The position numbers and the translations under genes are program-made. Positions 16,530 through 23,225 of a stretch of 64,000 nucleotides of DNA are shown piece by piece; the first letter of the stretch is position 1; the number at the start of each line of letters is the position of its first letter. The DNA is from Thalassotalea fonticola. GTDB lineage: Bacteria > Pseudomonadota > Gammaproteobacteria > Enterobacterales > Alteromonadaceae. The notes beneath the pieces are model-generated. The model ran no database searches. It had not been told where the DNA came from and saw only the letters and a program-made list of their open reading frames with translations. The stretch lies in assembly GCF_032911225.1 (NCBI RefSeq), contig NZ_CP136600.1:3348001-3412000 (forward strand), in the 5' to 3' direction.

Positions 16530-16627
16530 ACATAACGCCCTAATAATGGGCAAAAAATTGTTTGCTAAAATGTTGAGGAACGAAAACAGCAAACTGTTTT
16601 TTGTCCTTATTAATTAGCTTGTTATGT
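16530..16627. repeat. attC site 27
   Basis: ACATAAC...GTTATGT; almost the same sequence as site 33. Confidence 0.92.
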
Positions 16628-19482: not shown

Positions 19483-19580
19483 GTATAACGCCCTAATAAT
19501 GGGCAAAAAATAGTTTGCTAAAATGTTGAGGAACGAAAACAGCAAACTGTTTTTTGTCCTTATTAATTAGCTTGTTATAT
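19483..19580. repeat. attC site 33
   Basis: GTATAAC...GTTATAT; near-identical to site 27. Confidence 0.92.
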
Positions 19581-21427: not shown

Positions 21428-21435
21428 AGCTTCCC

Positions 21436-21500
21436 TGGCAAGTTAACAGCTTAATAGAAGGATATTACCTACATTTACCAGTGCAGTTAACCCATTCTAA
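21436..21500. other. Putative attI region
   Basis: The first cassette begins at the GTTAAC core at 21442-21447 (minus strand GTTAACTTGCCAGGG). Upstream on the minus strand is a second core-like GGGTTAACTGCACTGG (about 21478-21493), in direct orientation, as expected for attI accessory sites. The assignment comes from cassette-end pairing, not homology. Confidence 0.5.
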
Positions 21501-21640
21501 ATTTTAAAAATATATTTTACTTTATCGTTATTTCAATATTTATCAAACAGTTAATTTTACATGTTCATTAATTACATTTTTATACCTACGTTTCTATGTT
21601 GAAATGGAGGTGTTGTGCTTTTTGTCACATTAAATAAATT

Positions 21641-22192
21641 TTAATTAATTATTTTTGCCGGGTTTCCAACAACAGATACATCTTCTGGTATGTCTTTGGT
21701 TACAACACTACCAGCGCCAATAATACTTCGCGCGCCAATTGTTACTCCTGGTAAAATTATGGCGCCACCGCCAATCCACACATCGTCACCTATATTTATC
21801 TGTTTTGCTGATTCAAAAAATTTGCGACGTTCATTCGCATCTTTGGGGTGTATAGAAGTATAAATTTGTACCGCAGGGCCAATAAATACATTGTTGCCTA
21901 TGGTTACTTTGGCAGCGTCTAGTACTACGCAATTAAAATTAAAAAATACTTGTTTGCCAAGTTCTATGTTGCTGCCGTAGTCACAATAAAAAGGCGGCTC
22001 TATCCACACTTGTACTTTTTTCTTAAAGAGTGCTTTTAGTAATTCTCGGCGCTGCTTTGTATCTTGCGGAGCAGAGTCATTAAACTGTTTTAGAGTAGTT
22101 TTGCATTCTTCTCGTTCTGCGCTTAATTGTCGATCAAGTGGGTTGTATTGTTCGCCGGCGAGCATTTTTTGTTTTTCAGATTTGAAGGTCAT
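21641..22192 (-). CDS. Sugar O-acetyltransferase (Maa/LacA-like)
   Basis: 183-residue left-handed-beta-helix acetyltransferase of the maltose/galactoside O-acetyltransferase group. The N-terminal Maa domain is visible (KSEKQKMLAGEQYNPLDRQL), followed by hexapeptide repeats and the signature IGDDVWIGGGAIILPGVTIG. The catalytic His is in YTSIHPKD. It transfers acetyl from acetyl-CoA to a sugar hydroxyl in the cytosol. It sits between attI and intI, and I find no attC on its left, so it does not look like a cassette. Confidence 0.9.
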   Translation of the reverse strand: MTFKSEKQKMLAGEQYNPLDRQLSAEREECKTTLKQFNDSAPQDTKQRRELLKALFKKKVQVWIEPPFYCDYGSNIELGKQVFFNFNCVVLDAAKVTIGNNVFIGPAVQIYTSIHPKDANERRKFFESAKQINIGDDVWIGGGAIILPGVTIGARSIIGAGSVVTKDIPEDVSVVGNPAKIIN

Positions 22193-22260
22193 GTCTAGTT
22201 ATCTACAAATTAAATTTATCGACTATACTGATAGTGATTAATTGAAAAGGAATTCAAATT
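22193..22260. promoter_or_regulatory. Divergent promoter region of intI and acetyltransferase
   Basis: 68 bp, AT-rich. For intI, TATACT (about 22224-22229) is a possible -10, and AAAAGGAA gives the ribosome site nine bases before ATG. No CTGT-N8-ACAG LexA box is visible, unlike many integron integrase promoters. Confidence 0.4.
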
Positions 22261-23225
22261 ATGAAATCAGAGTTTTTATTGCATATCAAACAATACATGT
22301 GGACCCGCAGATATGCAAAGCGCACTATAGAATCTTATCTATATTGGATAAAAGCATTTATAAATTATAACAACAAAAAACATCCCAAGTTTCTACATAA
22401 TAACGATGTTGAATTATTCCTTTCATTTTTAGCAAATGAAATGTATGTAGCCCCTCGTACGCAGGCCCTAGCATTAAATTCTTTAGTCTTTTTATATCGA
22501 GATGTGCTGTTAAAGCCTTTAACTTTACAATTACGATTTAATAAAAGCAGCGCGCCCACTAAGTTGCCAGTTGTGCTTACCAAAGAAGAGGTTAAAATAT
22601 TTTTTGCTCATTTACCCGCTAAGTGGGTTTTACCATGCCAGCTTTTGTATGGGAGTGGTTTACGGTTAATGGAAGTTATTAGGTTACGTATACAAGATAT
22701 TGATTTTGACTATGTATCCTTGCAAGTATGGCAAGGAAAGGGCGGCAAGAATCGTCGAGTAACATTGGCTAAAGAGCTGCTTGAACCACTAGAAGAACAA
22801 GTATCATTCGCTAAACAGTTCGTAACCCAAGATTTAAAGAATAATGACTATGCCGGGGTTTGGTTGCCTTATGCGTTAGCTAAAAAGTATCCAAAGGCGC
22901 CTAAGCAGCTGGGTTGGCACTTTCTATTTCCGTCAACTCGGTTAAGCCATGATCCTGAAAATGGGTTATTAAGAAGACATCATATAGATCATACCGGCTT
23001 ACAAAAAGCCGTTAAAAATACAGCAATAAAAGCTAAATTAAAAAACGGGTAACATGTCATACATTACGTCATTCTTTTGCTACCCACTTATTGCAACGTG
23101 GCGCCGATATCAGAACGGTGCAAGAGCAGCTTGGCCATAGTGATGTTAGAACAACACAAATATATACTCATGTAATTGAAAGAGGAGCAAGTGGCGTTCT
23201 CAGCCCGTTGTCAGATCTTCTTTGA
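22261..23225 (+). pseudogene. intI: Integron integrase IntI, -1 frameshift
   Basis: Tyrosine recombinase of integrons, which inserts and excises cassettes at attI/attC. The first frame (263 codons) has the SAM-like DNA-binding domain, catalytic Arg135 in GSGLRLMEV, Lys about 160 in WQGKGGKN and the IntI-specific insert (KKYPKAPKQLGWHFLFPS, RRHHIDH). It ends at TAA 23050. The -1 frame from 23046 continues [25 protein letters not shown] and IYTHV with the remaining His, Arg, His and Tyr. The break lies in TTA AAA AAC GGG TAA; one more A would restore [12 protein letters not shown]. The combined length (about 321 residues) is normal. Confidence 0.9.

Follow-up and report, generated by a model that had tools for sequence, protein, structure and literature searches.

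An integrase gene in two frames beside a cassette array

The window analyzed here, bases 3348001-3412000 (64,000 nucleotides) of the single-contig 4.9 Mb genome of Thalassotalea fonticola, carries an integron integrase gene (intI) at 22261-23225 on the plus strand that is laid out in two reading frames, the switch falling on the motif A AAA AAC. An attC array lies beside the gene on the opposite strand, making this a sedentary chromosomal integron. Its features, in window coordinates, are the following.

597-21020, minus strand: cassette array with 30 attC-like sites in the window, found with a pattern made from the array's own repeats
21441-21640, minus strand: probable attI region; homology with the closest relative ends at 21429, and the shared core on the minus strand is AAGCTGTTA
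21641-22192, minus strand: maltose O-acetyltransferase-like gene separating intI from the array (PRK10092, 204.4 bits, below the cut-off of 314)
22190-22260, plus strand: intI leader with a -10-like TATACT and an AAGGA Shine-Dalgarno sequence, the same in the closest relative; the promoter was read by eye
22261-23052, plus strand: zero-frame piece of intI, 263 aa (PF13495, PF00589, TIGR02249, 2a3v_A)
23040-23046, plus strand: in-frame A AAA AAC heptamer at the frame change, read from the sequence and absent from the closest relative
23046-23225, plus strand: -1-frame tail of intI, 59 aa plus TGA, with HxLRH, the second His and Tyr (TIGR02249, 2a3v_A)

Read in the frame of ATG 22261, positions 23038-23052 are TTA AAA AAC GGG TAA, and the zero frame ends at the TAA of 23050-23052, just short of the catalytic C-terminus, as the initial annotation had it with the correct positions. 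The A run at the junction counts six residues (23040-23045). Because the first stop upstream in the -1 frame is TAA 23034, the -1 switch must fall within 23037-23052, which contains the A run; the tail frame terminates at TGA 23223-23225. The annotation had further proposed that a -1 step on A AAA AAC restores the integrase C-terminus, and profile searches agree: against TIGR02249, the zero-frame piece scores 325.9 bits over positions 1-256 of 315, passing the 265-bit cut-off by itself, and the tail scores 115.2 bits over positions 259-315. On the solved Vibrio integron integrase 2a3v_A, the two pieces correspond to chain residues 1-260 and 264-319. Judged by sequence comparison, both matches are far beyond chance and, as expected of sedentary chromosomal integron integrases (TIGR02249; 2a3v, IntI4 in PDB), the pieces follow in order across nearly the whole profile, the difference here being a single change of frame ahead of the catalytic C-terminus.

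In the zero-frame piece lie the N-terminal SAM-like domain, the residues Arg135 and Lys160, and the greater part of the catalytic domain; the tail alone has His 23058, Arg 23067, His 23136 and Tyr 23163. We take these residues to be the catalytic ones, and they are divided between two reading frames, Arg and Lys lying in frame 0 and the two His, the other Arg and Tyr in the -1 frame. An independent start for the tail was set aside, since it would presumably yield a 59-aa piece lacking the DNA-binding domain. We also ruled out a further integron integrase that could act in trans: in a search of the whole genome, the zero-frame piece was the sole stretch above the TIGR02249 cut-off, while the intI tail and two weakly matching stretches in other genes all fell below it.

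The array extends beyond the window, where 11 further attC-like sites reach out to -10576, giving about 41 sites in 31.6 kb (-10576 to 21020). The same pattern yields 4 scattered matches in the flank to the left of the array and none on either strand of a 40-kb control stretch (24001-64000). Of the 44 matches that it finds in the 100 kb compared from the closest relative, T. nanhaiensis, 40 form one array adjoining intI. While homology between the two genomes is continuous from 21429 through intI, from -10.1 kb to 21.4 kb their arrays have only two segments longer than 300 nt in common, so that cassettes have been turned over since the two lineages split. None of the seven cassette proteins scanned against NCBIfam, nor the acetyltransferase, reached the cut-off of any family, resistance families included. 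Two attC sites, at 16532-16625 and 19485-19578, are 99% identical over 94 nt and may reflect a recent copy or exchange.

The layout of the boundary departs from that of other sedentary chromosomal integrons in that the acetyltransferase-like gene separates intI from the array; the probable attI is consequently some 0.8 kb from intI. Its crossover G/TTA would lie near 21447/21446, a placement taken only from where homology with T. nanhaiensis ends. The acetyltransferase-like gene also adjoins intI in T. nanhaiensis and in a second relative, G002 (75 loci checked, our own included, many with short flanks). No LexA-type site (CTGY-N8-RCAG) was found in 21430-22300, and there is accordingly no evident SOS control of the kind known from other integrons.

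Relatives of the split gene and selection on its two pieces

A comparison of intI in related strains, suggested by the initial annotation, covered 15 genomes of the genus, our own included. An uninterrupted full-length integron integrase is present in 12 of the 14 others; one genome (G008) has a broken copy and one (G003) none. Two of the 12 copies are distant from ours, at 51% (G001) and 38% (G011) identity, and perhaps belong to other integron lineages. T. nanhaiensis (G004), with 90.8% identity over the zero-frame piece and 98.3% over the tail, reads TTA GAA AAA CGG at the junction, in a single frame and without a slippery heptamer; G002 reads ATA AAA AAG CGT, again in a single frame. Across 70 distinct relatives, 68 keep one frame through the site and 66 are stop-free within 50 codons on either side (the exceptions being L035, L036, L052 and L078); the set comprises loci whose tail match exceeds 70 bits, with our own loci and duplicates dropped, and these are mostly best matches, so both counts overstate the frequency of intact intI. 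Of 295 genomes from the wider family, at least 215 contain a match that passes the integron-integrase cut-off. As far as sequence comparison reaches, the split is private to one genome, and intI, interrupted here while its orthologues are whole, shares this trait with intI pseudogenes.

The linker before HxLRH carries a Lys in all 66 intact relatives and an A run of 6-7 in nine of them; it may be a recurrent spot for indels.

Selection on the gene appears unchanged. Against T. nanhaiensis, dN/dS is 0.063 for the zero-frame piece and 0.029 for the tail, indicating strong purifying selection. When changes were polarized by G002 (roughly, as the synonymous distance to it is saturated), the nonsynonymous to synonymous counts in the zero-frame piece were 15:36 on our branch and 12:29 on that of T. 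nanhaiensis (Fisher p = 1.0), and those in the tail 0:4 and 1:10. Neither dN/dS nor these branch counts thus gave any sign of relaxed selection in either piece. Under a simple model in which a share of our branch is unconstrained, the probability of so small a number of nonsynonymous changes falls to 0.04 for a share of 10% and to 0.005 for 15%, making an unconstrained share above some 10% unlikely. Strong purifying selection on both pieces implies that the break is very young, that it is tolerated or the gene is still used, or that it is an error.

A probable recent inactivating frameshift and its alternatives

Our best reading, to which we give a probability of roughly three in four, is that a single-base frame change, in the linker A run ahead of HxLRH, has recently knocked out a sedentary chromosomal integron integrase. 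The invariant Lys codon in an A-rich linker tends to give rise to A runs where genomes are AT-rich and so forms a natural weak spot. The zero-frame product would keep the DNA-binding part together with Arg and Lys and, having lost His, Arg, His and Tyr, should not recombine. With no other match in the genome above the integron-integrase cut-off, the cassette array is probably static. We infer a loss of integrase activity, predicted from sequence, and a mutation rather than a sequencing error as its probable cause. The idea of a dead integrase and a frozen array, raised in the initial annotation, fits this reading, but the loss must then be very recent, as selection is not relaxed. Its suggestion that one A was lost from a run of seven holds as to place, the frame change lying at an A run, but T. 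nanhaiensis has a G-interrupted GAA AAA here, so that a long ancestral run can only be supposed. The preserved tail and the unchanged dN/dS would equally fit an assembly misread of an intact gene or a product still made by slippage, and that the break coincides exactly with the slippery heptamer used by IS1 is a point against plain inactivation.

Loss of intI is an ordinary fate for such genes, and frameshifted intI genes are already well documented. In culture, frameshifts in intI1 arise under selection, the active integrase being costly (Starikova et al. 2012, PMC3510236), and in a 2008 survey (Nemergut et al., PMC2426708) nearly one third of intI genes, but only 4% of those among vibrios, are pseudogenes. 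The gene described here resembles those cases (PMC2426708, PMC3510236) in its single frameshift, its predicted inactive product and the intact orthologues in relatives. It differs from them in that selection is not visibly relaxed and in that the break is late, just before HxLRH, whereas in the culture mutants (PMC3510236) the early part of the gene was hit. Taken as an ordinary lesion, the break would represent one well-placed and very young integrase loss next to a large cassette array, and would help to date when arrays freeze.

That the A run was misread in sequencing or assembly, and that intI is really intact, we regard as unlikely. The frame change does fall in a homopolymer, both pieces lack relaxed selection, and no second genome of the species appeared among the best 120 of 4752 protein matches, none of which was more than 91% identical. 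Against this, we compared 942 kb of our genome with 940 kb of T. nanhaiensis, in which 730 ORFs were called mechanically and 215 had a homologue (best match with at least 60% identity and at least 70% coverage). Over these 215 genes (80,613 aa, 239,960 bases), intI alone was frame-changed and none of the 214 others was, even though 391 A/T runs of at least 6, 91 of them of at least 7, occur in our genome's matched coding sequence (counting intI). The reverse comparison found 0 of 214 of our ORFs frame-changed in T. nanhaiensis, and a smaller first run had given 1/148 and, in reverse, 0/147. The near absence of frame changes indicates that the assembly is accurate in homopolymers here, which makes an error less likely; broken intI genes, moreover, are common. 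The initial annotation had preferred mutation or homopolymer error to programmed slippage. That preference stands, there being no Shine-Dalgarno-like element, no downstream fold that outdoes shuffles, and neither split nor heptamer in the nearest relatives, with error as the weaker of its two halves.

We consider it distinctly improbable that the integrase is leaky, that is, that occasional -1 ribosomal (or polymerase) slippage on A AAA AAC yields small amounts of complete IntI that would suffice for cassettes to be shuffled now and then, much as IS1 holds its transposase at a low level. A canonical in-frame heptamer sits right at the switch, and the tail beyond it is intact and conserved. Yet the heptamer is weak evidence, because a shift of frame within a run of A's almost automatically produces one. 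Both heptamer and split are missing from the closest relatives; conversely, an in-frame A AAA AAC occurs at the same linker in two intact relatives (L082, L087) and 15 further in-frame copies lie in matched genes of our own genome, which points to ordinary Lys/Asn coding. A run of six A's is also short for polymerase slippage.

The initial annotation had seen neither a Shine-Dalgarno-like nor a stem-loop stimulator, and a closer search largely agrees. Hairpins closed by G-C pairs and starting 7-10 nt past the motif, at a permitted distance, can be drawn when their ends are forced to pair, the best at -0.19 kcal/nt over 97 nt, a value that has no shuffle background. By contrast, the folds of 23040-23110, 23047-23117 and 23047-23147 were worse than average (z of +0.71, +1.00 and +1.20): of 200 shuffles, 148, 169 and 182, respectively, folded at least as well. 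None of the Shine-Dalgarno-like motifs given in PMC4066793 lies within 30 nt upstream. Of the hallmarks of programmed -1 frameshifting, the gene thus has the in-frame slippery heptamer and lacks conservation and an upstream Shine-Dalgarno-like stimulator.

PMC4066793 describes A_AAA_AAC as a low-efficiency motif in E. coli, a weakness that counts against a leaky integrase, though one that gives >0.10% frameshifting without stimulators; IS1 uses such a signal, and the proven insertion sequence case with A_AAA_AAC has no established stimulator. The IS1 transposase shares with our gene the heptamer, the -1 direction, the want of a clear stimulator and a longer product, but its arrangement is conserved and proven (PMC4066793), whereas ours is private to one genome. 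It seems very unlikely that a chance frame change created such an IS1-like leaky gene, in which rare -1 slippage keeps recombination very low but non-zero and spares the host the cost of full integrase. If slippage did restore some product, it would constitute a new way to throttle integron recombination. The available portions of the literature on integron integrases with ribosomal frameshifting or slippage contain no report of a frameshift-restored integron integrase, and those on Thalassotalea and integrons nothing on a broken or slippage-restored one. Conserved programmed frameshifting of integron integrases, which has only the presence of the heptamer in its favor, was rejected as exceedingly improbable, since 68 of the 70 relatives read through the site in one frame and relatives share neither the split nor, in the closest, the heptamer.

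Two other damaged integron integrases were seen in the genus. The copy in G008 (L052) has a TAG just before the conserved linker Lys; it also reads HTMRN instead of HTLRH, and its N-terminus is disrupted. In G005, a second copy (L056/L068) is split into three frames.
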